64,000 nt of DNA from a virus, in IMG/VR virus record IMGVR_UViG_3300030107_001446, positions 135,259-199,258 of that record; one strand, given 5' to 3'. The position numbers were made by a program, and so were the translations under genes. The notes under the pieces are model-generated. The model saw nothing but the letters and a program-made list of their open reading frames with translations, was not told the origin of the DNA and made no database searches. How positions within the stretch are numbered: position 1 is the first letter of the stretch; each line of letters starts with the position of its first letter. Positions 11,656 to 50,926 of the stretch are shown here, one piece after another.

Positions 11656-12069
11656 ATGCCATCGTATAGGTTCAGATCTGAAAAATATATCAGTAGAGGG
11701 TTTAAGGATTTAGCAGTCTCTTTTAAACCAAACCCTTCTACAGGAGATTTTGGTGTGGTCAAAAATGAAAACGCTATAAAACAGTCTGTCCGAAACATCA
11801 TATTAACAATGTTTGGTGAAAGACCTTTTCAATATGAAATTGGGTCTAGGGTTAAAGCACTATTGTTTGAGCCTTGGGATCCATTTAGTGCTGATAGTAT
11901 GAAAAGTGAAATTCGTAATGCTCTGGATAGATTAGAACCAAGAATCGAAGTTAACCAAATTAAGTTAAGGGATGATTCTGATATAAATTCCATCCAGGTT
12001 GGTATTGACTACACTATCGTGGGTCAAGAAGAAATACAAAACGTCGAATTTCTCTTAGAGAGAGCATAA
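11656..12069 (+). CDS. 25: Baseplate wedge protein gp25
   Basis: A 137-residue T4 gp25/T6SS TssE-family protein. The core has the usual pattern: DLAVSFKPNPSTGD near the start, VKNENAIKQSVRNIILTMFGERPFQYE in two parts around residues 36-62, then a SRVKALLFEP turn and a C-terminal sheet ending in VEFLLERA. T4 gp25 has 132 residues. It joins gp6 and gp53 in the wedge and helps start sheath assembly. A TTG 21 bases upstream is in frame, but ATG 11656 gives the conserved start and fits the late promoter leader. The stop overlaps the gp6 start (TAATG). Confidence 0.92.
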   Translation: MPSYRFRSEKYISRGFKDLAVSFKPNPSTGDFGVVKNENAIKQSVRNIILTMFGERPFQYEIGSRVKALLFEPWDPFSADSMKSEIRNALDRLEPRIEVNQIKLRDDSDINSIQVGIDYTIVGQEEIQNVEFLLERA

Positions 12070-17100: not shown

Positions 17101-20100
17101 ATGGATTATTGGTTTCTGACCAAGTTACCATATATGGTGCTAACCCAGTTGTCTATAATGGCACATTTACGGTTACATCACGTATTGACCAATTTACTTT
17201 CTCTTATCAGATAGCAACACCTACAGAGATAATTCCTACTGGTAATATCCTCTTATCTGTTGACTTAAACAGAGGTAAGTCTGATGTAGTATCAATAAAC
17301 AAGGTTGTTAGTGAGTTTACAACTAACATACAGAATGCATTTTTCAACGATAACTATGTTTATGTTGCTGCTTCTGGTTTACCCAACTATAAGATTGGTC
17401 CTTTCACTGGGTCAGCTCTCATCCCAGGAAACCAAAGGAAACTCTTAAGATTCCCCAGAACAGTACAAACCGTCTCAGAAAGACAAGCAGTTGCTCCAGG
17501 TACTCCAATAGGTAGTTGGGTCAACGGTGTTTCTATATGGTCATATAAGTCTCCAGACTATATCCAGTATGGTCCTTTAACCTCTGTTAGTGTTACTAGC
17601 GTTGGTGAAGGATATGATGCAGGTGCTAAACCCAACGTAGAAATCACTGGGGGTGGTGGAACAGGTGCTACTGCTGAAGTTATAGTTAATGGTAGTCTTT
17701 CATCATTTGATGTTATAGAACAGGGTAGTGGATATACAGAATCACCTTTAGTATCAATCGTAGGTGGCGGTGGTATTGGTGCTACTGCTCAAGCAGTTAT
17801 TACAGGTGGTAGAGTAACAAGAATTTTAGTTGAGCAACCAGGTTCAGGTTATACGACTCAACCCCTAGTTTCTATTACTGGAGGTGGAGGCACTGGTGCG
17901 ACTGCTACTGCCAGTGTCCGTGGACCTATTAGTAGTGTTAGTATTACAAACTTCGGTAGTGGATATACTTCACTCCCTGACATTAAAGTTAACTCTGGTG
18001 AGAATGCTTTAGCACAACCAATCGTATTAAATGGTAGAATCGTTTCTATCGCTATTATCAACTCTGGTAATTCCTATACAACAGCACCTAATGTAATAAT
18101 CAATGGTGATGGATTTGGTGCAATCGCTAAAGCAACTATCGGTACAATTGGTGAAGATAAAGGACGTGTATTAAGCGTTTCTATCACTAACCGTGGAATT
18201 GGGTATACACAAGGTTTAACAACCGTCAGACTCGAAGCAGTGGGTCAATTAGCGTCATTCCAACCTACAGTTTACCAATGGAATAGAAACCTTCAATATG
18301 AATTGGTAGACAAGTTTGATGGTGCAAGTGGATATGTATTTACTGGATTTAACAACCAGTTTGGTGGTGAATATGCTCACCTATCAGATCCTAAAGAATT
18401 AAGATATGTTGTTGGTGATAACGTATTCTTAAATCCTGTTACACAGAATTTCCAAGAAGTTGCTTCTAACTATGACCACTCACCTATTATAGGTTGGGCA
18501 TTTGATGGAAACCCAATTTATGGTCCTTATGGTTACATTGACCCAACTGACCAGAATAGTGGTATCAGAAGGATGCGTACATCCTTCAAATTGAAGACTA
18601 ATGTTGTATTTGATGCAACTACTAATCCTAACCCTTCTAGGGTAGATGGACCTCCTATTTCAACATATGCTGCTGGAACATTTGTTGATGATTACTACTA
18701 TGATTTCCAATCTGGTGATTTAGACCAATATAATGGTCGTTTCTGTAAAACACCTGATTATCCAGATGGCACATATGCATACTTCGTAACTATCGATGCT
18801 AGTGACGCAGGTATTGCTGAATTCCCATATATCGTTGGACCTCAGTTTAACTCACTTCCAGATTCATGGAATATGAATCAAGCAGCAACACAGGAGAATA
18901 TTCCTGATGGAGTTGTCCGTTATAGAGATCCATATACTGATGTTGACATTGATATTGACCGTCAACCAAACCAGACTGCTGATGTCTTTACTACTGAGAT
19001 AGAAGGTTATCCTATCATCTTTGAAATACAAGACTCTAATAATGATGGTTTGATTGATGCTAATGAGCAACAAGAATTATTAGAGATGTCTGAAGAGGCA
19101 ACTCTACAAATATACGATTATTTCCCAAGAGTATCAGCAGAGTCTAGAGTTGATATTGAAGTTGAGACAACTACCCAATTTGAGAATGCTCAGATAGATG
19201 GATTCGTTGTTGAAAACCCAGGTGTTTCATATCAGGTAAATGACACCATATTCTTCGATAATGAAGGAACTGGTGGATTTGGTGCATCTGCTCTTATTGA
19301 ATCTGTTAAAGGACAGAATATAATTGGTTATCAAAAAGAAATGATTGGTGACCGTCCTTACGGTGTAATTACTACTGATATAGAGCATGAATTACGTCAA
19401 CAGGATGAAATCATTGTAAACTCACGTCCTGTTATTGATAATACTAATAAGACGTTTAGAGTTAAGGTTGTAGCGGGTGTTGAGAATATTGCTATAACTC
19501 AATCAGGTACTGGATATAATACAGATATTCCTCCAACATTTGAGTTAATTACTGCATCTGGACAAGATGCTGAGTTATCACTTGTATTAGAGAATACAGG
19601 TCAAGTTAATGCTGTTAATATCATTAACTCAGGTAATGGATACGATTCTGATAATCCTCCTCAGATTAGGGTATCACATCCACAACAATTCAAGAAAACA
19701 AGGTATTGGTTAGCTGAATATCAAGAAGCAACAGGTATAGTTAGTATCAATGATATTGTAACCACTGAAGAGCGTTATACTTATATTTGCGGTAGCATCA
19801 CTGAGACAGATGGTGATATGGCAGCATTCCTTGCCAAGTTTGATGATTTAGGTCAACTTGTTTGGGAAAGAAACCTTCTTCCTCAAAATGCAGGTCAGAA
19901 GAAAGCAGAATTCATTAAGATTCTAGTTGACGCAGTTCCAGAGAATGACCTCATATATGTTGTTGGACATACTTACGATCCAAACAATTCAGCATATAAT
20001 CCTGATATATGGTTAGGTAAGTATGAATCTGGATTTAATAATGCTAATGCACCTGATGGTATTCTTAAATGGCAGAAAGCGATTGCAGGTATCAGTGGTA

Positions 20101-23100
20101 CTACAAGAAGGGATTGGGTAACTTCCTTAGCACTTGACCAGGAAGGTCGTATCTATCTTGCAGGTTATACAGATAGTAATTCCATAGATCCTAACGATAT
20201 GTGGATTATCCAGTGTAACTTGGATGGTGACCTTGTAGAGAAGAGAAAGATTGCATCTGCAACTGATTCTGAAATGATTAATCAGATTCAGTGGATATCT
20301 GATGATAGATTCTTCATGGTTGGTCAAAATGACGAAAATGACGATTGTATCTTCGGTGTATTCTGGTTTGACGGTGCAAACCTTGAAATTGAATATATTC
20401 GCCAAATTCCAACAATAGGTGGATATGTAAGAAATCCTAAATTCACTATTGACGAATATGACGATGTAATCTTAGTTTGGGACGTATATAACGGTGCAGC
20501 ACAGAAATACGATAAAGTCCAGATTAACAAGTTCCCATTATCTACAGCATCTACTTCATGGACATGGAGTAAGACTGTAACCATTAGTGGTGATATTGAC
20601 GCTATTAGACATGCAGGAGTCAATGTAGATAAGTTTGGAAATTATACTTTAGTTACTGATGTAATAGAAGACCAAAATCAGAGATATGCGATATACCACT
20701 ATATCAAGTATGATGGTAACGTAATTAAAGAATCTAAAGTTGATGATACTACAAGTATCGGATTCCAAGCTATAACTCACTCAGTTGATAACTCTGGTGA
20801 TGTAATAATGGTTATTAACAGACAACAGTCTGACCAAATTGCAGCATATAGATTTAATGATGATACTGATTTAGATTACGACTTTACTAAGCAGAATAAG
20901 GCAGCAATGACCTTCTATTCTCCATCTGACGCATCATATGATTCATCATTCTATAAGTATGGCACTGGTGCACTTAAACTAAGTGCAGTTAACCCAGTTT
21001 CTCTTCCTAATCTTAATCTTGAGTCTAAAGAGTGGAGTTTCAGAGCATGGTTATCCATGAATTCTACTGCTCATTCTACAGACCATAAACCACTTCTTTG
21101 GGATATTCTACCAGTAGCAGGTGATTCAATTCAGGTTGAATTGGATGGTGATACTAATAGTGCAAACTATGAGAAAGTTATAATCTATGTAAACTCTGTA
21201 CAGGTTGCAACTTCTCTTCTTGCTACTAACTGGACTGCATTTGCAGGTGCATCATGGGTGCATGTTACATTCCAGAAGAGAGAAGAATCATTAGGTCTTT
21301 ATCAATATGAAGTCTTTATCAATGGTGCTTTAGTTTGTAACTTCCAATCAACATCTGATATCAGTGTTGGTAGTGCAGTCCTTTGTGGTAAGTCTGCTGG
21401 ACCTACATCTAACAATACATTCATTGGATGGGTAGATGACTATGTGATTGATGATGTTGCTCCATATCTTTCTGCTTATAGTGTGCCATCGGCCGAGATT
21501 GAAATTACTACTTCAAACTCTGATTCTGCCTTAGTTAAATTTGACAGAGAGCATACTAAGAGAGGAAGTTATGCACTTAGTGGACTAGACAATTATACAC
21601 AATTAGACTTTACAGATAATGAGATTACAACTACATGGGTTGATGTAGGTCTATCTGCTATCAGTCCATGGATTGTTGGAGCAGGTGGTTTACAGATTCT
21701 TGATATGTCTCAGGTTGTTTCTAACCTGAATCCTGGCACATATACATTTACTGCTAATAAGTTTGAGTATGGTACTAAGACTTCTACAATACCATCTCCT
21801 CTAGGTAAGAAACTTATTATTGAACCTGAAGTAATCAGTAAATTCTATATTAGAGATGCTCTATATCAGAAGATTGATAATGTAATGGAATTCACCTTCA
21901 GTCAAGATATTAAGTTGACTAAAGGATCAATACTTCAACAATTCAACAGCTCTGGTGTTACACAAGCATATGGTACTATTGTAAAAGTTCCAGAAGGAAC
22001 TCTCCTGAATCCTGGATATGGTAATAAGTATCAAGTTGGTAAAATATATGGTACTTTTAATAACACTGACCGTTATAGGACAGTAGCAAATGATATTAAC
22101 CAGATTGAAGGAACTTACTTTAATACAGAAGAAGAGGAATCACCTTGGCAAGCAAATACAGCATATACTGCGGGTGATAGAGTATACGCTGATAAGAAGA
22201 TTTACGAAGTCCAAGCAACAGGTACTTCTGGTACTATTTCATTATCACATACATCTGGTGTTGCTAGTGACGGATTATTAAACTGGGCATTTATTGATGA
22301 TGCAGGTAAGTTTACTGTTGACTTAACACAACATCCATATCCTAGACCTCAGTGGGTTGGTATGGATATGCCAGAATGGTTACCAGATCGCTTATATGTT
22401 GAGGGACAAAGAGTATGGTGGAAACTCAATGTATATGAAGTAGCAGTAGGTGGTGCAGGTGTAGCAGGAACAAATGCTCCTGTGCATGATACTGGTGATG
22501 CATCTGATGGTGGTGTAACATGGACTCACGTTTCTACTGAGGAAGCAATCAGCGTCTATAGTAGATTGATGGGTTATGATATGGGCAATAATTATACGGT
22601 CCAGATCATGGAAGTCCATCCTGGTTCAGTATACATTCCAGATGACGTTGTTAGTTTAAATGCAGGAAATATAACTCTTGCTGAAGATGAAAAGAGTGTA
22701 GAGATATCTGGATTTGCTTCAGTTAAAAAGATTCAAGTTACTGCACGTTTAGAGAAAGATATAATTAGGACAAATGCTGTAAGGACAGAATTTGTTTATT
22801 GCACATCAAATACTGCTCATATGTTTAAAGCAGGTGATATCCTCTTTACTGAAGGATTCAGTACTGCACAATTTAATGGTAGTTTCTTTATTGACCAAGT
22901 AATTGGCACTAGAGAATTTACATTTGCTATTAGAGCAACTGCAAGTAGTGATCCTGCATTTATTAATAATGCTCTTGGTGGTGTTAACATCTATGCAAAA
23001 CACCCAACATTAGAGTTTACTAGAAATCATCAGTATGTCTTTGACCTATCTGACTCTTCTAACTTTGGATATTACTTATCATTCTCTCAAGATAACCAAT

Positions 23101-26100
23101 ACAAACTAGAATACTCATTTAACAACATTGAAAGAAATGGAACTCCTGGTATTGCAACAACACCAGCTCCAACAGTTCAATTCTCTGTATTAGGTGAAGT
23201 TACTAATATTTCCTACTACTTTGACCCATCAAGAACTGGTGCTGATTCACCAGTAGGTACAAACAGTTTTATTGATGTCATTAAAACTCCTTTCGATGGT
23301 AGATTTACTATTTCAGAAGTACCAACAGATACATCATTCAAATTCCCACTCCTTAAGGAACCTGAAAGGACTAATGCTGAGGTTGGAGAAGATTATCTAG
23401 GTAATGATTATTCATACTATTCAACTACATCTGTAAGGGCAGTTGGACCTATTAATACAATTCAACTGGTTTCTCCAGGTGGATTCTATCAGAAGTTACC
23501 TATCATTAGTGATATTGCATCTTTCAGACAAATTGAGAAATGTGTAGTAGTAGATGGAGGTACTGAATATGCTCCAGGTGTTTACTATGATGTGCCTATT
23601 GCAGGAGATGGTGAAGGTGCTAAATGTACTGTTACTGTTGAAGTAGATGAGGAGATTGGATCAGGAACTATTACAGGTTGTGCTGTAACTGACCCAGGTA
23701 AAGGTTATACAACTGCATCTATTGATATTGACGCTATACCTGGAATATTAGGAGCAACTCTTGCTGGATCTGGTGGTAGTGTAAATGTTGTTATTCCATC
23801 AGAAGGTAGTGGTGCATCTGTATTCTTAACAGGTACTAATATTGGTAAGATTAAGAGATTAAAGAATAATGAATTTGGTTTCGGTTATTCACATGACTAT
23901 ACCTTAAAACCAGAGATTACCTTCCCTGTTAACTTACAACTCTTTAATACTTCAATACTAAGTCAGATTACCATAACTGATCCAGGTTCTGGATACTCAT
24001 CAACTCCAGCTGTTGTAATCGAAGGTGGTGGTGGATCTGGTGCTGAAGCAGAAGCAATTATTAAGAATAATAGATTATCTGAGATAATAATCAAGAATCC
24101 AGGTGCAGGTTACTCATCTGAACCAACTGTTACTCTTAAATCAGAATTTAACTACGTTGTTAACTTAGACCTTAATTATCTACAGTTTAACTTCCCACAT
24201 GGTATTACGTCAGGTGCAGAAGTTACATTTAGGGCAGAAAACGTAGGATCCACAACTGGCGAATTACCAAAACCATCTACCGCAGGTTTAACCAGTTTGG
24301 TGGCAAATCAGGTTTACTATGCTATTGCTGGTACAGCAGCAGGACTAGAGCCTGACCAATTAAGATTCGGTCTTACTAAAGCATCTGCATTAGCAGGATC
24401 TTACATTACCTTCTTAACACAAGGTAGTGGTCGTCAAGTCCTTTTAACTGAGGTATTCGGTGGTAAAGCAACTGCTGTTGTTGAAACTTCTAGATTCCTT
24501 GAAGGTGAAGATGTATACCAAGGTTCTAATGTTGAAACTGCCACTGCTATGGGTACAGTTTCTACTAACACTGGTTGGCAGATAGGTCCTAAGATTCTTA
24601 AGATTGTTGATTATACTGGTGATTGGGCAGTTGGTGAGTCTGTAACAGGTACTATTTCTAAAGCATCTGGTGTTATCGATAACTTCTCGATTGCACGTGG
24701 TGTGTTAAATATCGGCTCCCTAACGAAGACACCAGGCCGATTTATTGATGACGTTGGTAAACCATCTGAGATTGTCCAGAAGATTCAAGATAGTTTCTTC
24801 TATCAAAACTTCTCTTACGTTGTCCAATCACAAATTCCTATCACAGAGTGGAAGTCTCAAGTATTAGAGAATAACCACCCAGCTGGTTTCAACATGTTTG
24901 GTCAGTTACAACTTACTGGTGGTAAGGACGTATCTGGACGTAAGATTGGTACTGAGTTTACTAAGAAAGTTAATATTAACAACTATAGTAATGTAAACCA
25001 GATTACATCATTTGGTGCTGCTCAACCAATCTATACTGACTACAACAATACTGAGGTTCTTTTCCGTAAGAAACGTCTAACATCTTCTGAGGAAATCTTA
25101 ACTTCAATCGTTAAGAAACTTGATAATTTTGAGGATCAGTTTGATGGTATTAAGAAAGCATTCCCAATTACTGTTGAAGGTGAGCAGGTAATCGTTAAGC
25201 AAGATCAGTTGATGATTACACTTAATGGTGTTATTCAGGCTCCTGGTATTTCTTATCAAGTTGTTGGTGGAGATTTAGTATTCTCTGAGCCACCAAGACC
25301 TCCTTCAAAAGTTAACTATAGAATCATTGGTGTTACACCTACTCCAATATACAGAATTGCTCTTTATAGTCCTGGTGGTAATGCAAACTATGGTATATTC
25401 CCAACTATAGGTCAGCAAGTACAAGGTGAATTCTCCGATGCTGTTGGAACTGTTATAGATTCAGGTACTAATCATATTGATGTTATCAATATCGTTGGTG
25501 GACCATTCCAACTTAACGAAGAGATTGTTAGAGGAGAAATCTTCTCAGCATTAGTCGAAACAGTTACTCAGGTTAATAGTGATACTATATTTGAATTTGG
25601 TGAAGCAATTACTAACCTTGAAGGTGATACTGCATATGTTGAAGAGACAAACGTAGATACTGATGGTAATGTTACAGATAGACTTGTTGTAAGTAAGACT
25701 TCAGGTACTCCAAGATTTGAAACTGGAATATATGACTTAAGACTTAACGAATACATTTATTCTGCATCATCTAAGATTGCAGGACAGATTACATACACTG
25801 CACCTTACTCAGACCCAATTAATGACGAAGTTGTTGATGAATTAATCATTAACCGAGGCACAACTTTCTTCGGACTACTATTTGAGCGTTTATTAAGTCT
25901 AACAAACCCAAATATCATTTTAGACAATATTTCGCAATCTTCAATCACTCCAACTAAGCTTTATGATTCTTCAAACAGAATTAACGCTGATTTCCTTGAT
26001 TTTGAAGAAGTTAGGACTACAGAAGTTACATATTCACAATTAGCGAATGGTGCTTTTGCAGATGGTGATATTATCCGAAATAAGAAGACTTTCTACGGAA

Positions 26101-29100
26101 ATCCAATTTCTGTCTTCCATGGAAACGCTGCAAACCGTTTCTTAGATGGTGGACGTAATATTGCGAATAATAAGCAAGAAATCATCGATTTTGCTGAAGC
26201 AAGCATTGCAATAGACTATCCAGACTATTATTTCCCATCTGACGTTATTACTAACGCTTGGAGTCGATTTAAAGATGCTTACAGGATGATTCAGAAGAAT
26301 AAGGCATTAATCGTCGGAATGGCGTTTGATGACATGAAAACTCAATTCCCTTCATCCTCAATTCCTTCAGATGCGAAATGTAAGCGAGATATTGAATATT
26401 TCGTAGATGCAGTAAGTATTGACATGTATGCAGGTGGAAACCGCTATACACGTAAATTCTGTCAGCAATATTTCAATGAGGCTGGATCTTTCACTTATAT
26501 CAATGCTCAAGCAACTGAGACCAAATGGGCTTACGAAAAAGCAAGAGATAGGATGAAAGTTGCTATTGCTAATGGATATTCAGGAACTATTAGTGCAGCA
26601 AACTCTGGAGACTCTTGGGTTGCATATCAAGACTTAACAATCACTGCTGACCCATCACCAACCAATCCTTACGGTACTGCAGGAACTAACACTTCAAATA
26701 CTGATTCAGACAACTGTACTGATGTCCAATCTGCTATTGAGACATTACATGAAATAGTTGATGAAACATTAACTAATGGATCTCTAACTGAATTACCAGT
26801 TGAATCTGGTGGTACATATTCACCACACCAAGAGAAGTGCAGAAGAGACCTTGGATATTTCATTGATGCTATTTCTAATGACCTTAAGACTGGTGGTAAC
26901 TATCAAACTGTCCTATTCACAAGATCATTCTTTGATGCTTCTGGCACACCTCTAACTAACGGAATTGTTGGTGAAGAAGCAGAAGCAGTCCATGCATTTA
27001 CAACTGCTGGTACATTGATGCATAGAGCAATTAATAACTTAATGTATTGGAAGGATCTTAGTGGGGTTGGATATAACCTTAATGATCCTACTACTTACTC
27101 TGGTGGTGTTGCTCCTGCTAATACTTACGATGCAAACTATGCATCTGGTAATAATCAAGATATTAACAACTGTGCAAACGTTAAGTCCTATATTGATACG
27201 CTGAAAGCGATTGCTACGACTGCAATGACAGCAGGTAACTTAACTAACGTTAATAACCTTGCATCCATCACAGATGGTACATTCCAAGATGGAGAAACAA
27301 TTAGGACAACTAAATTTGCATATAAGAATAGAAGTCGTGGATTATTCGCTCTTGGAGATACAATCAAGGGTATTACATCTGGTGCTGTATTTGAAGCAAT
27401 CGGTGCTAATGCAGGTTTAAAATGGATATTTGCTTCTAATGTTACTGGCACATTCCAAGATGAAGAATGGATAACCAATTCTACTTTAACTGCAACAAAT
27501 TGCACCCAAAGTGTAATTGTTAAGAAAGCAGAATTAGTAGGAGATAAATCTGTCTACAAACCTTCAAATGGACTTCTAACACAAACAGCAAGTGAAGATT
27601 TTGCTTTTGGAACTGGAGATTTCACAATCCAATCATGGATACGTCCTGCTGCTAATGTTGGCACACAATACCTATTTGACTTCAGAAGATTATCTGCTGC
27701 TCAAGGTTTAAACATTAGAATGGATGGTCAAGGTCTTAAGGTCTATAATGGCACAACCTTGATGGTAAGTGGTAGTGGTGATTTTGCAACAACTGGTACT
27801 TGGTATCACATCGCTATTGTAAGAAATTCTGGTGTTACTCAGGCATATGTTAATGGTGCTCAAATAGGGTCTAACTACGTTGACACTAACGATTATCTTT
27901 ACAATGCTCCTCATATTGGGTCTGACTTTAACCAGTCATCTCATTGGACTGGACATATTGATAATCTTTGCATTAAGAAGGGTGTTTGTGATTTCATTAC
28001 TGGATTTACTCCTCCTACTCAAGTTGACTTTGCTGAAGATAATATTGTATTAGGTATCGATGGTGAAGGTCCATTCATTGCTTCTACTACTGAAGTATGG
28101 GCAACATACACTGGACAGAGAACATCATCTACAACTGCTAAGAGAGTTGATTATGATGGTTTAGCACTTATTGCTTCTGATATTGATACTGGTAGAAAAG
28201 AATTAAGAGATTGTGCTGAAATAATCGACCTTAACGGTGCATGGATTGCTGAGGAAGCAGTTGGTCGAATGAAGGCAGCATTCGTTGATTTCACCATTAG
28301 AGGTGACGATCCAGGAAATAATAGTTACGGTGGTACTAACCTTTGTATTAGGGATACTAAAGATTATATTCTTGGTGCTCTAATTAAAGACTTACAAGAA
28401 GGTGGAGATTTCCATACAATCTATACTGCAAGGACATACCTTACTACAAGTGGTAAATTAGACCATATCACAGATGAGATTCTACAATCTCTCTATACAT
28501 GGAATGAGGTATTTAAACTTTGTGAGACTGTTATTACAACAACATCTACTGACCTATCAGGTGAATATAGCACAAGATTGAGAATACCTAATAACTTCTC
28601 ATCTCCTGCATCTTCTACTGTTACTGATGAGATTAAACTATTAGGTGATAATTTACTTAAAGTTGTTGCTCCTAATGACCAAAGATTCAGAGAAGGTGGA
28701 TTCCAACTTTGGAAGAATAGAGATTATATTGCTGAAGAAGTAGCAGGATATATTCAAAACAAATATCAACAGGAGATTAATGAAGTAACATATGACTTCC
28801 TTGAAATGCCTGGATATGGTCAACCCTACTGTGAACGTGATATCAAACAATTTATTCTTCCTGCTGTGATGGCTGATTTGGTCACAGGTGGTACATATCA
28901 GACTGAAGCAGTTATTGACAAGTATCTTGATAGTCAGAATAAGGTAATACATGTTGATGAAGAATTAAACCCAATGCTTGATGCATTTGAGTATTGTAAG
29001 ATGCTCTGCATGAAGGCAGTTAATAACTTACTATTATCAAGTGGTGAAGCAGCTGCTGAGTTGGGTGTCCCAACATGGGTACAAGAAGAGTATTATGCAC

Positions 29101-32100
29101 CTCAGTGGACTGCTAGAGCAGCATATAGAGATGATACTATTGTCCTTGATACAGAAGGATATCCTCAGGCAGGAACTAGACAAAACAATGACAGATATCT
29201 TGATGCTGCTGACCTAATCTGGAAGAATAGACACGTCATCGCTAAAGAGTGTGTTAGCACTATGAATGACTTGTCCAAGTATGAGAATCTAAACATTCCT
29301 GGTGGACATGTTAACTGTGAAGATGATGTTTTAGATATGATTGAAGCAATGGTACATGACCTTCGCTTTGATTGTAACGAGAAGACATATGATGCTGCTG
29401 CATTATACATTGAGACTGAAAATAACTCACTTAAGCATATTGAGGGTGAGTGGGAAGCATCTATAACTGTAGTTAAGATTCTAAGAGATATTACTTCTCT
29501 AATAATGCGTAATGCATTTGGTAGAGATTATGAAGAAGGTGGATCCCCTGATCAGAAACCAGTTGAATCTTATGAGCAAAATCCAAGAATTGACCTTTAT
29601 AAGAATTGTGGTGATGCGATTGATGGAAACATCAGATATATCGCAGAGCAAGCAGTTGCAGCTGGATTAGTCCAATTCCCTAACCTTAATATTCCTGGTG
29701 GTCCTATTAACTGTGTCCATGACGTTACTGATATTCTTAGAGCATTAGTATTCAACATCAAGTATGGTGGTAATAACTGGTTACAATATTCTACTGAATT
29801 CTATGCAACATATTCTGGTAATTTAGACCATGTTACTAATGCACCTACTGAAACTAATTGGATAATGAATAAAGCACGTGATTTTGCAATCCGTGCAATG
29901 AAGGGTCAGATTATTACTAATGAAGCAGGACATGTAGTAGACCAAAGATTCTACGATGCAGTGCCAAGACCTACTACAACTATGGTCACAACCAGTGTAT
30001 TAACTGGTGCACCTGTTACTGACAATTATAATAATCTTGTAACAAGATCATTCAAGTTTGGTGAAGATAAGATTTCTACAACTGATACTGGCACAGGTAT
30101 CATACCTGATGAAGATGCTGTATTCAGTGTTGTAACTAAACTACCTTCTAGTCCAATAGATTGCTGTCTATTTGAAGCAGGTGGTGGTACATCTGGTGTA
30201 TGGTTTGGTATCAGAGATGGTGGTACATGGTTGAGATTAAGAGCTGGTAATGGTACTAACTCATATACATCTGGAGCATCATATACTGCTGATACTGGTC
30301 TTGCAATGCTCGACCTACAGATTAGTAACCTAACACAATACTTTGATGATGGTGACCATGAATTAGTATGGCAGATTGTTATTGGTGGTAACCAAACAAC
30401 TGGTGCAGGTAGTGTTACTCTTTGGATTGATGGTCAACAGATTGGACAAGCAACAACACCTGGTGGTGGTTGGACAGGTTTAACTGGAGCATCTGGATTA
30501 TTTGCTAATACTCAGTGGGCAGGATTCGGTGTTTCTAATGGATCTTTGGTAGCAGGAGAAGCAGCAACTATTAACACATTTACAGTTAATGTTGGACCTG
30601 CTCCTACTATTGCATATGATATAACTGCTGCTGATTACGATTCATCTACAGGTGATTTAATATTAAATGTTGGTAATCATAATCATACTCCAGGAACATT
30701 CTTGAGGTTGATTTCTAACTCATTAACATTTACATGTGACCAAGATAATCATGCTTCTAATCACACTTATCCTAGATCTGGTGACCCCGCAGGTAATACT
30801 GCTGTAGAGGTATTAGATGTAGGTAGAACTGAGCATACTGCAACTGCTGCGTCATACGATCCTAACTCAGGAATAATGAATATGACCATAGAGCAGCATG
30901 GTATGACTGCATCAACATCTCATACTGCTAAAGATGCTGCATATGACCCAGATTCAGGTGTCCTAACAATTACTCTTGATGACCATGGATTTAAGACAGG
31001 TGACCAAGTTAAGATTCATAATGGATCTCTAATCTTTACATGTGCTCAAGATAATCATGCTACTAAGCATGGATATCCTAGACAGAAAGATCCAGCTGGT
31101 GACCAGTGGTTATTAATAGAAGAAGTTACACCAAATACATTTAAAGTTAATGTTGGTGCTACACCTAAAGTTGAGTATAATGTTTCCGATGCAGTATATG
31201 ACCAAAATGATGGTGAATTAACTCTTGATATTGGTCAGCATCGTTTCGTTGGTGCTTCAAATCATGTTGCAACATTTGCTGAATATAATGCAGATAAGGG
31301 AACATTAAAACTAACAGTATCTGGACATGGAGTTATAGTTGGTGACCAGATTCAGATCATGGAAAATTCCATGACATTTACTTGCTCAATGGATAATCAT
31401 TATACTAACCATGTATATCCAAGAAGCACTGACCCATGTGTAGGTCAATGGTTAGATGTTGTTGAATCTGATATTCCTGGTGGAACATTTACAGTTAACG
31501 TAGGTCAATCTCCTATAGTTGGTTGGGATCCATCTGATGCAACATATAATTCTGAGACAGGTCATTTAACACTTGAAATTGGCAATCACTCTCTTGCAGT
31601 TGGTACTCATGTGAAACTATCACAAGAGTCATTAAACTTCACTTGCTCAATGGATGACCATGCAACGATTCATAGTTATCCTAGAGATACAGACCCAACT
31701 CATAATGAACCAATACAAATTCTTGCAACCACTGCTACTTCTATAACAGTACCAGTTGGTACAACTCCTACAGTTCAATATACTCCAACAAATGCAACAT
31801 TTACTCCTGCTGATGGTCTATTAGAATTAACATTAGATAGAAAGCATACATTCCGTCCTGCTACTATTCATAACATTTCTGGTGGTGAATATAATGGATC
31901 TACTGGAATGATGAGAGTTACAGTTGCTGACCATGGATTCTCTAATGGTGATTTTGTTAAGATTGCTGATGGTGGAATTACATTCTCATGCACAATGGAT
32001 GGCAATGCATCTAACCATGCATATCCAAGAGCATCAGACCCATATTCTAATAAATGGTTAGCAGTTAGAAATGCATCTAAAGATTCATTCGATGTATATG

Positions 32101-35100
32101 TTGGTAGAACACCTGAGTTACCATTTACAATAACTGATGCTACATTTGTACCTTCTACAGGTCATATGAGAGTATGGATTGGTGACCATGATTTAGTTGC
32201 AGGTGATTATGTAAGAATGACAGAAGAGTCAATCGGATTTACCTGTTTATTAGATAATAATATTTCCAAGAAATACTATCCTAGGTCATCTGGATCTAAC
32301 TACGTTGGTAACGGTGGTGCTGACCCATTCTGGAATAAGAGAATCCAGATTGCATATGCAGGTATGCCTTTAACTGCTACTACTGGCACATCATATAATC
32401 CTACAACTGGAGTTATGAGCATCTCTACTGATGCTCCTCATGGAATGAGTGACGGTGATGAAGTTAAGATTGCAACTGATTCATTAGTATTCACTTGTTT
32501 AGAAGATAACAACCAAACAAATCATACTTATCCTAGAGCAACTGATCCATTTAATGATAGATGGATGAGAGTTTCTAATACATCAACATATACATTTGAT
32601 GTCCAAGTATTGAGTTATGCTCCATCAACTAACTCAACAACTCATACATTTGTCCAAGCAAATGTAAATGGAATCACTAAGAAGGATGGCACAATTACTC
32701 TTGATGTAGGTGCATCCTCAGATACTACTGCTCATACTTACACTGCAACTCCTGGTTTAACTCCAACTGCTATTACTCATAATCCTGTAACAGGTATTAT
32801 GGATATCACAGTTGAAGGACACAAATTAATGGCAGGTGACTTTATTAAGATTGCTGATAATTCATTGACATTTACTTGTGCAATGGATAACCATGCATCT
32901 GACCATGTATATCCTCGTCCTGCTGACCCAGCTAGTGGATCATGGTTGAAAGTCTTAACTGCTACTACTGATACATTTACAGTACAAGTATTAAAAGATA
33001 TACCACAGAGTAATACTACAACTCATCTATTCAAGTCTGCTGTTGCTGAATGTATTACAAAATCTGTTATTAAAACTGGTGGTGTATATGACCACACTTA
33101 TGTAACATCTTCTGTTGGTGCTTTACGTCATGCAGGTGATAGTGTAAGACTTGCTCCTGATGCATTGACATTCCGTTGTGATGCTGATGGTCAAGCATCT
33201 GATCATGTATATCCTAGATCTGCTACTACACAACATACACCTTCAGATGTTGTATATAATCCTAACACTGGTAACCTTAAGTTTACAGTTAATAATCATG
33301 GATTCTTACCACATTCATATGTCAAGATTGCTGATAACTCTCTAACATTTACATGTGCTAAGGATGACAATGCTACTGGACATTTATATCCAAGACCTAC
33401 TGACCCTGTAAGTGGTAAGTGGGTGATGATTAATGATGTAAGTGCGAATACATTCACTGTTGAAGTATTAGATGTAATTCCATCTACAAATACTACAGTC
33501 CATACATTTGTATCTGCAACTTCTAACTGCATTACACATAAGAAAGACCACTTCTATGATACAAATATTCCTATCTACGAAGTAGGAATGACATCATCTA
33601 CACCTTCTAATGTTTCTTATAATCCAACATTAGGTGAGATGGTTGTTACTGTTAATAATACTCTTACTGGATGTAATAAGATTACACCTGATAGTGCTAC
33701 CTATTATCCTGCTACTGGTATTTTAAGAATACAGATGAATGGTCATCCTGTTAAGAATGGTCAAATGGTTTGGTTACAAGATGGAGCATTTACATTCCGT
33801 TGTGACGAAGATGGTCAAGCATCTGATCATGCTTATCCAAGACCTTCTGATCCTGCAAGTAATAAATTCCTTAAAGCATTTAATGTTGGCACAAATACTA
33901 TAGATGTTAACGTAGGATACTTTGAAGGACAAGGTGCAATTTCTAACCAAACAACTCATGTATTCCAGAGTGGTGCAATGAATGGAGTATGGCATGCAAA
34001 TTCTTATGTAATGTTTGAAGAGAATGCTGTTACATTCCAGTGCACTAAGGATAACAATGCAACTAATCATTCATATCCTAGACCTTCAGATCCATCATGG
34101 AATAAGTGGTTACCTGTATTCAATACTTCCTCTGGACAGTTTAGTGTTAAGGTTGGTAAGTCTGGTATTAATGACATTTACGATCATACTTTCGTTTCCT
34201 TTGCTACTGATGGTCTTAAGACACAAACTGGCACTATTAAATTAGATGTTGGTAATGGTCAAATTACAAACCCAACAACTCATGTATTCCAATCTGCTAA
34301 TGCTAATTCTTTAATTGGTGGTGGTGAATATACACACGACTTCAAATCAACAAATTCAACATACACTGTAACGGATGCTAACTATCTTCCTGCTACAGGT
34401 ATAATGACTCTTACAATTCCTAATCATGGATTCCAAGATGGTGAGAGTATTAAGATTTCTAATGATTCATTAGTATTCACATGTCTTCAAGACGCAGGTG
34501 GATCTGAGCACAGTTACCCAAGATATACAGACCCTGTTGCAGATAAATGGATTAAGATTCATAATTGCACAGATGATACATTTGATGTCCAAGTACTAGA
34601 GAATATTCCATCAACTAACCAGACTCTTCATACATTCAAACGTGCATCTGCTAATGGTGTAACAAGAGCAGTATTAGCAACTGGTGGTAACTACACTCAT
34701 AAGTTTATTGCTCCTGCACAATTAACTCCAACTAACGCAGTATACGATCCATCAACAGGTGTGATGACTGTAACTGTTACTAAGCATGGATTAAAGAATG
34801 GCACAAGAATTAAAGTTGAAGATGGATTCGTAACATTCACATGTGGTCAAGATAGTAACCAAACTAATCATTCATATCCTAGGGCATCTGACCCATTTAG
34901 TGATGAGTGGATGAAGGTATCTAACGTCACTACTGACACATTTGATATTCAAGTATTATTCAATATTCCATCTACAAATACTACACCTCATACATTTGTA
35001 TCTGGTAAACCTAAGAGTATAACTGTTGCTACTTTAATGAAGGGTAATGACAGTATTAAGATTGCTGACAATGGTTTAACATTCACATGTAGTAAAGATG

Positions 35101-38100
35101 GTAATTCTACTGAGCACACATATCCACGTCCTAATGTTGACCCATCATGGAATAATTCTCTAAGGATTGTTGATGATGGTGTATCACGTCATACTCCAAC
35201 AGATGCTTCTTATACTGCTACAACTGGAGTCCTAACATTAACAGTACCTAATCATGGTTGGTCTAATGGTCAGTATATTAGATTAGAAGATTATGCATTA
35301 GATTTAACTTGCACCATGGATGATGGTAGTGAGAATCATGCATATCCTAGAGGCACAGATCCTATTAGTAATAAGTGGTTAGAAATTTCTAACGTAACTG
35401 CATCTACATTTGATATTAATGTAGGCACTACACCTTCTGTCCAGTATACTCCTGCTGATGCTTCTTATGACCCATATTCAGGTCATATGGAATTGAATAT
35501 TGGTGCTCACCCACTTAAGGTTGGTCAAAGTGTTAAACTTGCTGATGGTGCTGTTACCTTTAGTTGTGACATGGATATGAATGCATCTAACCATGCATAT
35601 CCAAGGACAACTGTTGACACATTTACTCCAACAGCAGGAGCATATGATGGCACAACTGGTTATCTAACATTAACTCTTAATGGTCATGGATTTGATAACG
35701 GATCATTAATTAAGATTGCAGATAATGCTCTTACTGCTACCTGTGAAATGGATGGTAATTCATCAGGTAAGACATATCCAAGATCAACAGATCCTATTAG
35801 TGGAAAATGGAAACCTGTAGAGAATGCAACTGAAAATACATTTGATATTTTTGTTGGTAAGACAGAATTCAAGAGTTTCGATCCACAGCAAGTAGATTAT
35901 AATCCTGCTACAGGTAATATGGTAATCACTGTTGGTCCTGACCACGGTATTACAACTGCACATAGTGTTTACATTAATCGTGAATCAATGTGCTTCACTT
36001 GTGCACAAGATGGTCATGGAAGTGACCACTTCTATCCACGTCCTAATGGTAGTGGTGGTGCATCTGGTGATGACCCTGCATATCAAGAGGCTGTTGCTGT
36101 AACTGCTGTTGATGATAGCACTATAACAGTTAATGTTAACCCATCACCTTCTGGAGCATCTAATCATGCTCATATCTTCAAACCTGCTGTAGGTTTAACT
36201 CCACAGAATGTGACATATAGTGGTGTATCTGGTGTGATGACTGTTACCTATGCAAGTCATGGCATGATAACAGGTGAGCAGATTATGTTTGAGGATAATT
36301 CCTTAATCTTCACATGTGGTAAAGATGACCATGCTACTGAGCATGCTTATCCAAGACACGGTGACCCTGCAAGCAACAGATGGTTAACAATTACAAGAAT
36401 TGATGACAATAGATTCACTGTTAAAGTTTTAGATGAAACTCCTTCTACTAACACTTCTGCTCATACATTCAAGTATGCTAAAGCAGGTGCAATGAAGAGA
36501 GGATCTATCAGAGCAGGTGGATCATTTACACATACATTTACAACATTCGCATCAGGTGGTGTATCTCATAAGAGAGATAGAGCATATGACCATTCTATAG
36601 AAATTAAGAAAGTTGGTCATGGTGAATATACTGCTACAGGTGCAACATATAATGCTGAGACAGGTGTCCTACAATTAACAATTAATGGTCATCCATTTGC
36701 TAATGGTAACATGATTAAGTTGAAGCCTAATTCACTAATCATGACTTGTGATATGGATAACAATGCTACTAAGCACTCTTATCCTAGAAAGACAGATTTT
36801 GCTTATGATAGATGGTTAGAAATTTCCAACAAGCAAACAAATACTATTGATGTTAACGTTGGTAAAACACCTCGTGCTAACTACCTAGTTTCTGCTGCCA
36901 CATTTGACCCAACATCAGGTGACATGGAACTTACTATTGGTAAGCATGGATATCATGGTGGCACAACACATACAGTAACTAATGGTACCTATGATGCTAT
37001 AACTGGTAAGATGGTTATCACAGTTCCTGATCATGGATTCATTATTGGCGATAGAGTTAAGTTTGTAGATAATTCAATTTCATTCAAGTGTGGTATGGAT
37101 GGATATGATGTTGTTAAATCTTATCCAAGACCAACTGACCCTGCACATAACACATGGTTAGAAATTGATGATATAACACTTCATACATTCTCTATTAATG
37201 TTGGTACATCACCTAAGACAACTCATAACGTAACTAACGCTAATTACAATCCTACCAGTGGTGTAATGGAATTAACCATTGGATCACATAACTTGGATGT
37301 TGGTGATAGTATCAAACTTAAGCCAAATTCATTAACATTTACTTGTGATTATAATGGTGATGGTCAGACAACTCAGAAGACATATCCTCGCTCATCTGGT
37401 GCTGCTACTGCAAACGGTAAAGACTATGCTTATGATGCAGCATTGGTTATTACTGCTAAGACAGGAACATCAATCACAGTTAACGTTAACGGTGGTCAAG
37501 GTGCTATTACTGACGTAACTACTCACACATGGGCTGGTGGAACATCAGCAGGTGCTGTTATGTCTGGTGGTGGTTATGCACATCAATTCTGGTCTGCTGC
37601 TGCAAACGGACTTCAGAGAGCAAACGAATCAGTTTACATTGAGAATGAGTCATTAGTATTCAAGTGTAATAATGATGGTTATGCTACTGAGCACAAGTAT
37701 CCACGTGCTAATGGTCAAGGTGGTGCTACTGCTGATGACCCATATTATGATACTTCAGTTCCTATAGTTTCTGTAGGAGATGAAACTATTACAGTTAACG
37801 TTGGTAAATCTTCAGATACATCAACTCATCTATTTGTAAGGTCTGAAAATGCATTCGATGTTTCTGGTGCATCCTTCGTACCTGGCTCAGGTGAATTAAC
37901 AATCACAATGCCTAGTCATCCATTCACCTCAGGTGATAAGGTTATGCTTAAGGATCAAGGATTCACATTCACTTGTCAAGAAGATAATGACCAAACAACT
38001 CATTCATATCCTAGAGCATCAGACCCTGCTTCAAATAATACTTGGTTGACAGTTACTGTTGTAGATGCATCTAACTTTAAAGTTAACGTTGGTACTTCTT

Positions 38101-41100
38101 CTAACGTTACAACTCACACATGGGTATCATCATTACCTGGTGCTGTTATAAGAGGTGTAATTAGAGGTGGTGGAGTTTATGCTCATACCTTCGATAGTTT
38201 CGTTGATGGTGGAGTACAATGGAAGAATTCTACTATTAGTCTTGACGTTGGTGAGTCACCAGCTAAAGGATATGGTGTTAGTGGTGCATCCTTTGTACCT
38301 GCCACAGGTCTATTGACAATGACAATCGGCAACCATCAGCTTAAGACTGGTATGTATGCCAAGATTGCTAACAAGTCAATGGTATTCCGTTGCGACCAAG
38401 ACTCACAGCAAACTGACCACGTATATCCACGTCCTAATGGATTCAGTGGTGCTACAGGTAATGACCCTGCATACAATAATAGAGTAGAAATTACTTCTGT
38501 ATCTGCTGATAGTATTACAGTTGATGTTGGTACATCTTCTAACACTACAACTCATTATTTCCAAAACGCTAATAACGTTTACACACCAACTTTTGCATCA
38601 TATGACCCAACATCAGGTTTAATGAATATCAGCATTCCTGGTGACACTAAAAACGTTACAGGTGCTGCATACAACCCAACTTCTGGTACATTAGAATTAA
38701 CAATCGGTGCTCATACTTTAACTACAGATGATGTAATTAAGTTGAAGCCTAATTCATTAACATTCACTTGTGATTATGGTGGAGATGGAAACGTAACTCA
38801 GAAGACATATCCTCGTGCACAAGGTGCATCTACTTCTGATGGAAAAGATTATGCATATGATACTGCATTAGCAATTACTGCTGTAGACCAAGCAGGTGGC
38901 ACAATCACAGTTAACGTTAACGGTGGTCAGGGTGCTATCACTGATACTACTACCCATACATTCCAATCTGCACTTGCAGGTGCTGTTATCGTTGGTAACG
39001 GTTTCATAGATGGTGAGTATATTAAGATTGCTGATGATGCATTTAAGTTTACTTGTGATAAGGATAATAACGTTACATATCACGATTATCCAAGAGCATC
39101 AGATCCATCAAGTGGAAGATGGTTGAAGATTTCTAACTGTAATGTTGATACATTCGATGTCCAAGTATTACAAAACGTACCTTCCACAAACACAACTGAC
39201 CATACATTTGTATCTGCTGTAGCATCTAGTATTCAGAGGTCTGTTGTTACTATCGGTGGTGAGTATAATCATACATTCGTATCTGCTGTTAGTGGTGGTG
39301 TAACTGCGGGTGGAAACTATACACATACATTTGCATCTGCTAAGCCAAATTCACTACACAGACAGAGTGGTAAGATTACAGTTAATGTAAATGTTGCTGC
39401 TACTGCTGACCTATATGACCATACATTTGTTAGTGCAATTCCTGGTGCTGTTATAGCAGGTGGTAATTATATGCACTCATTTGTATCTGCTGCCACAGGT
39501 GGAATTGAGAAAGCAAATTCATATATCTTGATAAAAGATGGTGCTCTTAACTTCACATGTGATTTAGATGATTATGAAACTGAGCACTTATATCCTAGAG
39601 ATACAGACCATGCAAGTAATGAATGGTTGGCAGTATCTAATGTCACTGTGGATACATTTGATGTCCAAGTATTGAAAGGAGTCCCATCATCATTCTTAGG
39701 TAAGCATACATTTGTATCTTGTGCTGAAGGTGGTATATGGAAGCAAGACGGTACTATTAAGATTAACGTTGGACCTTCACCTGCGGGTAATACATATGCT
39801 CACAGATTTGTAAGTGCTAACTCTGGTGCTTTAATACAGGGTGGTAACTATAGACATAACTTTGTATCTGCTGCATCTGGATGCATTAAGGTAACAAATA
39901 GTGGTGCTACATTAACACCTACTGATGCATACTACGTCCCAACAACAGGTAAGTTAACTCTAACTGTTGCAGGTCATAGTTTAACAACTGATGATACTAT
40001 TGAAATTGATACTAACGGATTAACATTCACATGTAGTCAAGACCAGAATGCAACTAACCACACATATCCTCGTGTGACAGACTATGCTGACGGTAAGAAA
40101 TTACATGTCCAAATGTCTAACTCATGGGCATGGCCTACTCAAGATTTGAAATACTTCAGGTCACGTCAGGTATCACAAAACTACACAGGTACAGAAGGTG
40201 CTCCAGTAGAAACTGAGATTACACAACTCATACAATTTGTAACTGATGGACTTACTAATCCTAACACAGTTGCAAGTAGGTCTTACATCATGCCTACTGT
40301 ATGGCCTGTTAAGTATACTCCAGAAGTTGTAGTAAGAGATCTTACTATTCAATATGATACAGCACAGGGTGGACAAGGTAACCAAGGTACATGGAATCAA
40401 ACATGTCAAAACGTTGCTTCAACAATCGCTACTGTTGCTGATATCTACATTCAAACAATAGCAGAGGCAGCAAATAATAATGTTAACTACTTAACTTCAA
40501 ACGTTACTAAGACATTCCCATTCAATAGCAACACAATATATCAAGATGGCACATGCTATAACGTAACATCTGCTATTGATACGTTGTTTGATATTATGAA
40601 GCATACACTTGGTGCTGGATCAAATAACTCCAAGAATATCGCTAACATGATACTCTTCAATCAGCAAGCAATAGCAGGAAGAGCATTTGGTGAGACACAG
40701 GTTAACTGGCCTACAACTAATCTAACTATTGACTTTGCTAATGATGTCCTTGCAGCAGTACGTTATGACTTAGTAACTGGTGGTAACTCAGGTGCATTTG
40801 AATTAGCACAACAGTGGTTTGACGGTGAAGGTAACTTCATAGCATTCCCAACCGTAGTTAGGACACACATCTTATATTGTTTAACAAGAGTTAGAGAATA
40901 TATTAAGAGTGTTATGTATCTTGTTGGTGAAGATGCTGTATGGAATAATTACGATGTATATGTCCCAGAAGGAAGACTTGAGTGGAATCAAGAAGCAGTT
41001 GAATTTATGGTTGACTCTTCACTTAACCCACTTGAATTTGCTTTAGAGAGAGGAGAATTCCCAACAGAAGCAAGAGTCCAGTGGATTGCATCTAGTGATG

Positions 41101-49390: not shown

Positions 49391-50926
49391 ATGGCGTTAC
49401 TTACCGACCAATTTAGAATTTTTACTGCCGAAAGGTTCCGCAAGGCACTTGAGGGACCTATACCTACACAGTCTGACTTAGAGGCAGGTACTTCTAGGGA
49501 TCGCTTGTATGTGTTCATCGGTAGACCCCAACCATGGGATAACGAGAATGCACCTCCAGACCCAGTAGATTCATTCCAAGAGTTTTCAGATGACTATTCT
49601 GACATGATCTCTATGAAGAGAGTGTTAGCGAATGATACTGTGCAGGTTATCCGTAGGACAGACTGGATACCCCCAGAGCAAACTACTGGTGGATTGGGTT
49701 ATGTTTATGATATGTACCGCCATGATTACTCCTCGACTAAAACTGCATCATCGGGTGCGACGAAACTTTACGACGCAGATTTCTACGTTGTTAACTCGTC
49801 TTATCAGGTTTACAAGTGCATCTTTAATGGGACAAGTCCTTCTGATCCTAACGGTAAACCTTCTACTGTTGAGCCTACTGGTACCTCCACTTCAATTATC
49901 ACAACTGCTGATGGTTACCGTTGGAAGTATATGTTTACGATCCCTGTTGGTCAAGTCTTGAAATTCTTCTCCAATGAGTATATGCCTGTGTTGTCTGACA
50001 CCGCAGTTGTTGCTGATGCTATTGGTGGAGAGATTGATACTGTTATTATTGCATCTTCAGGTGCAGGATATAACAATGGTACATATGAAAACGTCCCCAT
50101 TAAAGGAGACGGTGTAGGTGGTAGAGTATCACTTGTGGTTGATGGTGGTAGAATTGCTTCTGCTACTGTGACATCTGGTGGTAGTGGATACACCTTTGGT
50201 AAAGTAATCATCGATGAAGTCAACGGTATTGGTGCAGGAACTGGTACTGGTGGTAGTGTCGAGGTTGTTATTCCTCCAGTGGAGGGACATGGTGCAGCAC
50301 CTGCTACTGAGTTAGGTGGTTTCCGTGTAATGATAAACACTAAGTTCACCTATGATGAAGGATCTGGTGACTTCCCAACTGATAACGACTATCGTCGTAT
50401 TGGTTTGGTTATTAATCCTAACAAGTTTGGCACTGAAGAGTTAACCTCAGATTTAACATTGAGTGCAACAAAAGCGGTGATATTTGCACCGACCTTTACT
50501 GGAAACTTCCAGACTGATGAAATTATTACCCAATCTCGTACCGTTGGTGGTCAGCAGGTAACTGCAAGAGGTAGGGTTATATCATGGAATAGTACTACTA
50601 AGGTACTAAAGTATTACCAGAATAGAATAGATGGAGTCTTCCCTGAATTTACTGGTAACCTAATTGAGTTTGAAGGTGGTAACCCAATAGTAGGTGCGAT
50701 TTCAGGTGCATCTGCTGACCCTGATATTAACTTCCCCATTGTATCTGGTTCATCAACAAGAATCATTAACAATGCTGAATATGATTTGGGTATGGCATTT
50801 ACCAACGGATATGCAAAAGCAGAAGTAGATCCAAACTCTGGTGACGTTATTTACATAGATAACAGAGGAGCAATCACTCGTGCGGGTGACCAAATTGAAG
50901 ACATCAAAATCGTAATCGAGTTCTAA
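49391..50926 (+). CDS. 8: Baseplate wedge protein gp8
   Basis: 511 residues against 334 in T4 gp8. The N-terminal half has the gp8 pattern of marine T4-like phages: LYVFIGRPQPWDNENAPPDP (residues 38-57), then VIRRTDWIPP, YDADFYVVNSSYQVYKCIFN, and DGYRWKYMFTIP. In T4, gp8 dimers sit at the outer wedge and bind gp7 and gp10. Residues about 215-300 hold two GxGY-type units (SSGAGYNN, SGGSGYTFG) inserted relative to T4, which largely explains the extra length. An AGAAGG site precedes the ATG, and the gene has its own late promoter. The next gene starts three bases after the stop. Confidence 0.88.
   Translation: MALLTDQFRIFTAERFRKALEGPIPTQSDLEAGTSRDRLYVFIGRPQPWDNENAPPDPVDSFQEFSDDYSDMISMKRVLANDTVQVIRRTDWIPPEQTTGGLGYVYDMYRHDYSSTKTASSGATKLYDADFYVVNSSYQVYKCIFNGTSPSDPNGKPSTVEPTGTSTSIITTADGYRWKYMFTIPVGQVLKFFSNEYMPVLSDTAVVADAIGGEIDTVIIASSGAGYNNGTYENVPIKGDGVGGRVSLVVDGGRIASATVTSGGSGYTFGKVIIDEVNGIGAGTGTGGSVEVVIPPVEGHGAAPATELGGFRVMINTKFTYDEGSGDFPTDNDYRRIGLVINPNKFGTEELTSDLTLSATKAVIFAPTFTGNFQTDEIITQSRTVGGQQVTARGRVISWNSTTKVLKYYQNRIDGVFPEFTGNLIEFEGGNPIVGAISGASADPDINFPIVSGSSTRIINNAEYDLGMAFTNGYAKAEVDPNSGDVIYIDNRGAITRAGDQIEDIKIVIEF

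Follow-up and report, generated by a model that had tools for sequence, protein, structure and literature searches.

Bases 135259-199258 of the 199,258-bp IMG/VR virus record IMGVR_UViG_3300030107_001446 (the 64,000-nucleotide stretch analysed here, referred to as the window) contain a single stop-free open reading frame of 9914 amino acids, which includes a long array of repeats with the signature FTC...YPR. What kind of repeat is this, and what might it do in so large a protein? Our analyses identify it as the longest array seen here of an already known, unnamed cyanophage repeat. The reading that we favour, with a probability of roughly 55%, is that the array is the stalk-like portion, variable in copy number, of a giant adhesin of the virion, encoded by T4-like marine cyanophages in the gp7 position of their baseplate operon.

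The array consists of 30 diverged copies of a 76-residue module

A plain pattern search detected 30 C...YPR cores in the giant protein, with the Cys at residues 5521-8620 and the Cys codons at 30735 to 40032, and an independent profile search of the whole source record likewise returned exactly 30 units. A sequence-only reading made earlier of this DNA had counted 30 units with [FLMA]-x-C...YPR, had placed a His two residues before YPR in 25 of them, and had put the array at one third of the protein. Each of these counts was reproduced: the conserved Cys is present in 30/30 units, the motif is H-x-YPR in 25 and K-x-YPR in the remaining five, and the array takes up 3167 of the 9914 residues (32%). 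F-x-C is found in 27 of the 30 units, with L, A and M each occupying the first position once, and DP follows YPR in 23. Shuffled arrays gave 0.01 C...YPR matches each, and no profile match was obtained in 200 shuffles, which excludes a chance origin of the array. The claim of one Cys, in the same place, in every unit holds for the conserved position; the array has 39 Cys in total, nine of which lie elsewhere.

The proposed unit length of about 107 residues has to be revised. A profile iterated over 140+ viral loci settled on 76 positions (consensus 'PTNATYDPATGILTLTIGNHGLSTGDSVKIADNSLTFTCAKDGNATEHSYPRSTDPASGKWLEITAVTTNTFTVNV'), and 107 is only the mean of a spacing that ranges from 59 to 168 residues. 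The 30 units comprise 21 full modules, four truncated at the N-terminal side, three at the C-terminal side and two at both ends; six orphan N-terminal half-modules are present besides, and short HTFVSA segments are interleaved among the modules. EF-hand-like loops (DYNGDG and DYGGDG, in units 23 and 27) were set aside because they occur in only 2/30 units.

Full units share on average 39% of their amino acids, their identities at the three codon positions are 0.52/0.63/0.46, and pN (0.42) is lower than pS (0.61, near saturation). This indicates that the units are old duplications under purifying selection; that the array is kept by selection had been supposed from the conservation of the protein despite diverged DNA. 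The most alike blocks in the array are 71-87% identical at the nucleotide level, so a few duplications are younger and duplication continues. Repeats are a familiar assembly risk, and the 30 copies might be attributed to chance or to a misassembled repeat. However, a mean identity of 39% makes the reads unique, and this divergence refutes an artefact. In addition, the next largest array found has 29 units in one open frame of 5506 amino acids on a second contig, binned with a euryarchaeal metagenome-assembled genome (MAG), and cultured phages hold 12-20 units. We therefore regard the probability of an artefact as negligible.

The unit is widespread in marine cyanophages

On the array, no family of Pfam or NCBIfam reaches its cut-off. 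In PHROG, phrog_1276 (325 amino acids, unknown function) matches it with 994 bits over 28 stretches, and the unit falls within phrog_1276/701/5342/18802. Hence, the earlier statement that the repeat fits no nameable family is right for Pfam and NCBIfam, but the unit does lie inside PHROG families and inside gp7-position proteins of cultured cyanophages. phrog_1276 spans the FTC...YPR unit, yet as an entry it has neither function nor fold.

Screening of 50,697 phages with the units by tblastn gave 267 to 330 records, and all unit-bearing records are named as Synechococcus phage, Prochlorococcus phage, cyanophage or marine virus. Among 25 marine T4-like genomes, the number of units per genome was 30 (the window), 19, 15, 13, 12, 12, 12, 10, 8, 6, 6, 5, 4, 3, 3, 2, 1, 1 and 1, and zero in the other six, SAR11 phage HTVC008M included. 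A megablast search of the array against phages gave no match, so no near relative is annotated. A cellular origin of the repeat was considered and rejected: the matches on Polaribacter and Clostridia MAG contigs fall in no recognised unit, and the remaining MAG matches resemble phage contigs binned with bacteria. No description of the unit was found in the mainly open-access literature covered, which is weak evidence of absence.

The giant protein is encoded at the gp7 position of a baseplate operon

In a profile search, phrog_701 ('virion structural protein') scores 3462 bits on the first 2609 residues of the giant protein; later parts match phrog_701 again, as well as phrog_18802, 5342 and 2885. 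The order of the baseplate operon in the window is gp6, giant, YHYH/virion protein, gp9-type connector, protein, gp8 and VrlC. The same order is annotated in cyanophages P-RSM6 and P-SSM4, which identifies the source record, on gene order, as a T4-like marine cyanophage. A giant is present at the matching operon position in P-SSM4, P-RSM6, P-SSM2, P-HM2, syn9 (whose genome has one unit) and S-RIM2, and S-WAM1 has this gene without the unit. The gp7-position proteins of P-RSM6 (8573 amino acids) and P-SSM4 (7312 amino acids), also phrog_701, share with that of the window the gene order, the domain types and the helical domains described below. They differ in the number of units, which is 19-20 in P-RSM6 and 12 in P-SSM4, whereas the longer giant of the window has the most seen here.

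Several phage records name the gene of the giant gp7, 'baseplate wedge initiator'; T4 gp7 has been stated to be absent from such phages, with VrlC in its place (PMC7029224). A profile of eight giant N-termini (704 positions), searched against the PDB with E values to 1 allowed, matched no chain, and a sequence search of the first 2609 residues against the PDB gave no match.

The unit is predicted to be a small beta-barrel with an added hairpin

The supposition that the unit folds is supported by an AlphaFold2 model of units 3-4, built with 82 natural pairs, which is a confident all-beta prediction (pLDDT 91.5). Among AlphaFold models, Foldseek found this fold again in structural proteins of cyanophages, with E values down to 1e-16. 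The best VIA-align rows were a head-tail protein of phage FCWL1 (Z 6.4), the FCCH domain of Uba1 (Z 6.0) and an endosialidase barrel (Z 5.8), the best matches extending over 63-65 residues at 2.0-2.4 Å with Z from 5.0 to 6.4; since all barrel matches have Z < 8, they may reflect merely a common arrangement. Weak sequence matches point the same way (E1_FCCH in 6/82 members, best 5e-4; End_beta_barrel in 8/82). The unit shares with the endosialidase beta-barrel (PF12195) and E1 FCCH (PF16190) the predicted fold class, the HG(L/F)xxGD motif and weak profile matches; it differs from them in remaining below the Pfam cut-offs, in adding the Cys/H-x-YPR hairpin and in being arrayed up to 30 times. 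From these models, the unit likely belongs to the FCCH/endosialidase-barrel superfamily.

A sequence search of the array against the PDB gave no match. The best PDB match of the array profile, iota-carbonic anhydrase (E 0.003), consists of three sub-threshold stretches and was judged to be due to chance.

A single-copy HGLxxxDxVTIxG...YNGTFTV motif is present elsewhere in the giant protein (window 17070-17250, residues ~966-1025) and in 290 cyanophage records, the best-listed of which are 65-78% identical. Its sequence looks like that of a plain barrel lacking the Cys hairpin, and it may resemble the ancestor of the FTC unit.

The conserved Cys probably lies buried in the core

The sequence-only reading had proposed that the conserved Cys, Asp and His could bind metal or cross-link chains along a trimeric fibre. 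Conservation of the Cys is indeed extreme: across 718 units, and likewise in a set of 698, it is kept in 99.7%, compared with 99.6% for the Pro of YPR and 99.2% for Gly11. Mutual information couples positions 33-38 with 44-49, as expected for one beta-hairpin, so C39 and H48 would lie on the same predicted hairpin, and D42 and H48 covary. However, in units outside the search pattern the Cys is kept in 99.5% while the His position is His in 43% and Lys in 36%, and five of the 30 window units also have Lys with the Cys unchanged, which argues against a metal site. Each unit, moreover, has a single conserved Cys. L35, F37 and C39 alternate onto one strand face, which is hydrophobic, and positions 36 and 38 covary with the opposite side. 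Judging from this alternation, the Cys most probably packs inside the core, close to H/K48 and D42, and there would then be no need to invoke a metal site or cross-linking. A metal- or redox-linked array thus seems very unlikely to us.

The array may be the stalk of a virion adhesin

The reading of the array as an adhesin stalk is based on the YHYH and concanavalin A-like domains that this protein also contains, on the baseplate operon and on the polysialic-acid site of the endosialidase barrel. In the K1F endosialidase, a site for polysialic acid and a hotspot of host discrimination are both located in this barrel (PMC12632334), and YHYH/lectin-like domains in structural operons of pelagimyophages have been linked to host recognition (PMC7029224). 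Each unit would be an autonomous small beta-barrel of ~76 residues, of the FCCH/endosialidase-barrel type (H-G-[LF]-x2-G-D-x-[VI]-x-[IL] ... T-[FI]-x-V), whose added beta-hairpin would bear the invariant Cys, an acidic turn and H/K-x-YPR. Recombination would multiply, truncate and remove units, and this turnover would make arm length and valency differ between phages (0-30 units per genome). Most likely, the array would then present, with the YHYH and lectin-like domains, many weak contacts to surface glycans and set the reach. Glycan binding by the array and an extended arm are inferred.

Several results weigh against the adhesin reading. Besides the modest Z values of the barrel matches, a Foldseek search of the array model against the PDB gave nothing below E 0.1, and PF12195 scored 20.5 bits (cut-off 35), with no Pfam model passing on the unit. 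The unit is also absent from S-PM2, S-WAM1 and S-H9-1, although their giants have the helical domains; the array is therefore optional. The main rival is a pure spacer, in which inert rigid beads fix how long a baseplate arm or the base of a tail fibre is, binding being left to other domains. A unit number of 0-30 while the neighbouring genes stay constant, the strongest conservation at core positions (Cys, Gly, Pro and Tyr), and the three phages that have the gene and manage without the unit are all compatible with such a spacer. However, the polar residues H20, D42, H/K48, Y50, R52 and D55 are kept at ~70-92%, which exceeds the needs of a bead, and we consider a pure spacer a real, if rather doubtful, possibility. 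The work on the array gives an unnamed PHROG family in hundreds of ocean phages a predicted fold, defined limits and a role, in adhesion or in reach, that can be tested.

Phycobiliprotein-like domains precede the array

Directly ahead of the array, the giant protein contains six helical repeats of ~95 residues (residues 4042 to 5243). The Pfam family Phycobilisome (PF00502) passes on one of them in context (29.2 bits, cut-off 22.2) and stays below the cut-off on domain 1 alone (16.8 bits); it matches 18/90 individual domains, and the next family two. We built a profile from 90 domains of the window and viral loci and searched it against all PDB sequences. The best 60 of 73 matches are all phycobiliproteins or named fluorescent derivatives (best E 9e-4), and the near-invariant Cys and Asp of the helical domains align with the phycobiliprotein C-x-R-D, the established bilin-attachment site.

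The AlphaFold2 model of domain 1 has a pLDDT of 92.5 and a pTM of 0.84. The top 50 VIA-align matches of this domain are all phycobiliproteins, with 93-98/101 residues aligned (best rows 2.0 Å over 98/101) and Z 11.1-12.2, although high Z values are common for helical models. The top Foldseek matches are likewise phycobiliproteins, with probabilities to 1.0 but E values of 0.1-0.6. Since the independent sequence profile agrees with the predicted fold, the helical domains are very probably homologous to phycobiliproteins. Common to both are the predicted fold over residues 43-149 and the position of the bilin Cys/Asp. The phage domains differ in lacking the N-terminal X/Y helices (alpha-beta pairing), the alignment starting from residue 43, in the less conserved Arg and in their site, a phage virion protein: in 274 helical domains, Cys is kept in 95%, Asp in 96% and Arg in only 61%.

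The 410 phage records found to have the domain are all cyanophage or marine ones; it is absent from HTVC008M, S-TIM5, S-SM2, P-SSM2 and S-SSM7. A search of mainly open-access literature returned no phycobiliprotein-like domain in phage tails, which is weak evidence of absence. These domains may be a more surprising find than the array itself: even without bilin, it would be unusual for a virion to be built in part from a recruited host antenna fold.

Two records of cyanophage-type giants deserve mention. In S-PM2 (AJ630128.1 168556-173383), sixteen tRNA genes are annotated within the giant S-PM2p218, overlapping a phycobiliprotein-like domain; this annotation is probably displaced. The 188-kb contig NZ_RMVE01000006.1, from the isolate assembly of Nonlabens xiamenensis 1Q3, encodes a cyanophage-type giant of 7352 amino acids, the length found in P-TIM40, and is probably a contaminating cyanophage genome.

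Bilin genes in the same genome and a possible pigmented virion

The source record has bilin-pathway genes, spread over three separate loci. They encode HO1, PcyA (220 bits, cut-off 206) with a second, divergent bilin reductase adjoining it, and a CpeT-type protein (21.2 bits, cut-off 21; phrog_488; PDB 5hi8, 'antenna protein', E 7e-7). In the 25 marine T4-like genomes, helical domains and CpeT occur together in 17, domains without detected CpeT in three, CpeT without domains in none, and neither in five (Fisher p 0.001, an optimistic value because related genomes are not independent). CpeT showed no association with the FTC array in these genomes (Fisher p 0.34). The S-PM2 cpeT gene precedes the domain-bearing giant by three coding genes.

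Cyanophage heme oxygenase, PebS/PcyA and CpeT are usually explained as boosting host light harvesting. As Gasper et al. (2017; cited in PMC10452541) reportedly found, phage CpeT binds phycoerythrobilin tightly but does not itself pass it on to the beta subunit of the host. One may speculate that the giant is a pigmented structural protein, whose phycobiliprotein-like domains would covalently bind bilins made by the phage HO1 and bilin reductases and loaded by the CpeT-type lyase; the actual acceptor of phage-made bilins would in that case be the virion instead of, or besides, the host antenna. If true, domains of this fold with the attachment Cys in a phage tail protein would be an alternative bilin acceptor. 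We consider this tentative and on the whole improbable. The clearest counter-example is P-SSM4 gp7 (residues 4486-6129), in which all three phycobiliprotein-like copies lack the Cys, though CpeT and a bilin reductase are encoded. Also counting against bilin binding, the Arg of C-x-R-D is often replaced, T-type lyases act on a different Cys in hosts, and to our knowledge no coloured cyanophage virion has been described.

Other features of the window and source record

The positions of all features are collected in Table 1.

Table 1. Features of the giant protein, its operon and the bilin genes (window coordinates, unless the source record is named; aa, amino acids)
Feature	Position	Strand	Basis or remark
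gp6-like baseplate wedge protein, preceding giant	12069..14168	+	by position; synteny
Giant, gp7-position virion structural protein of T4-like cyanophage	14175..43919	+	no stops; phrog_701; synteny
YHYH domain, PF14240	18360..18800	+	E 7.9e-29
Laminin_G_3/concanavalin A-like domain, PF13385	20991..21449	+	at cut-off
Phycobiliprotein-like domain 1, aa 4042-4133	26298..26573	+	C-x-R-D; modelled
Phycobiliprotein-like domain 2, aa 4206-4288	26790..27038	+	C-x-R-D
Second Laminin_G_3/concanavalin A-like domain, PF13385	27594..27974	+	E 3.6e-16
Phycobiliprotein-like domain 3, aa 4687-4788	28233..28538	+	C-x-R-D
Phycobiliprotein-like domain 4, aa 4848-4951	28716..29027	+	C-x-R-D
Phycobiliprotein-like domain 5, aa 5018-5113	29226..29513	+	C-x-D-D
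Phycobiliprotein-like domain 6, aa 5152-5243	29628..29903	+	C-x-H-D
FTC...YPR array, 30 core modules (21 full 76-aa, 9 truncated) and 6 orphan N-terminal half-modules	30621..40127	+	pattern and profile
Units 3-4, pair modelled by AlphaFold2	31272..31769	+	all-beta, pLDDT 91.5, pTM 0.69
Degenerate seventh phycobiliprotein-like copy, aa 8829-8914	40659..40916	+	Cys lost
gp8-like baseplate wedge protein, 511 aa, as in P-RSM6	49391..50926	+	by position; synteny
VrlC-like baseplate protein, 2444 aa	50930..58264	+	by position; synteny
Two adjacent bilin reductases, one PcyA	source record 25165-26506		
Heme oxygenase HO1	source record 64443-65051, within locus 64410-65132		E 6.6e-69
CpeT-type lyase	source record 104356-104811

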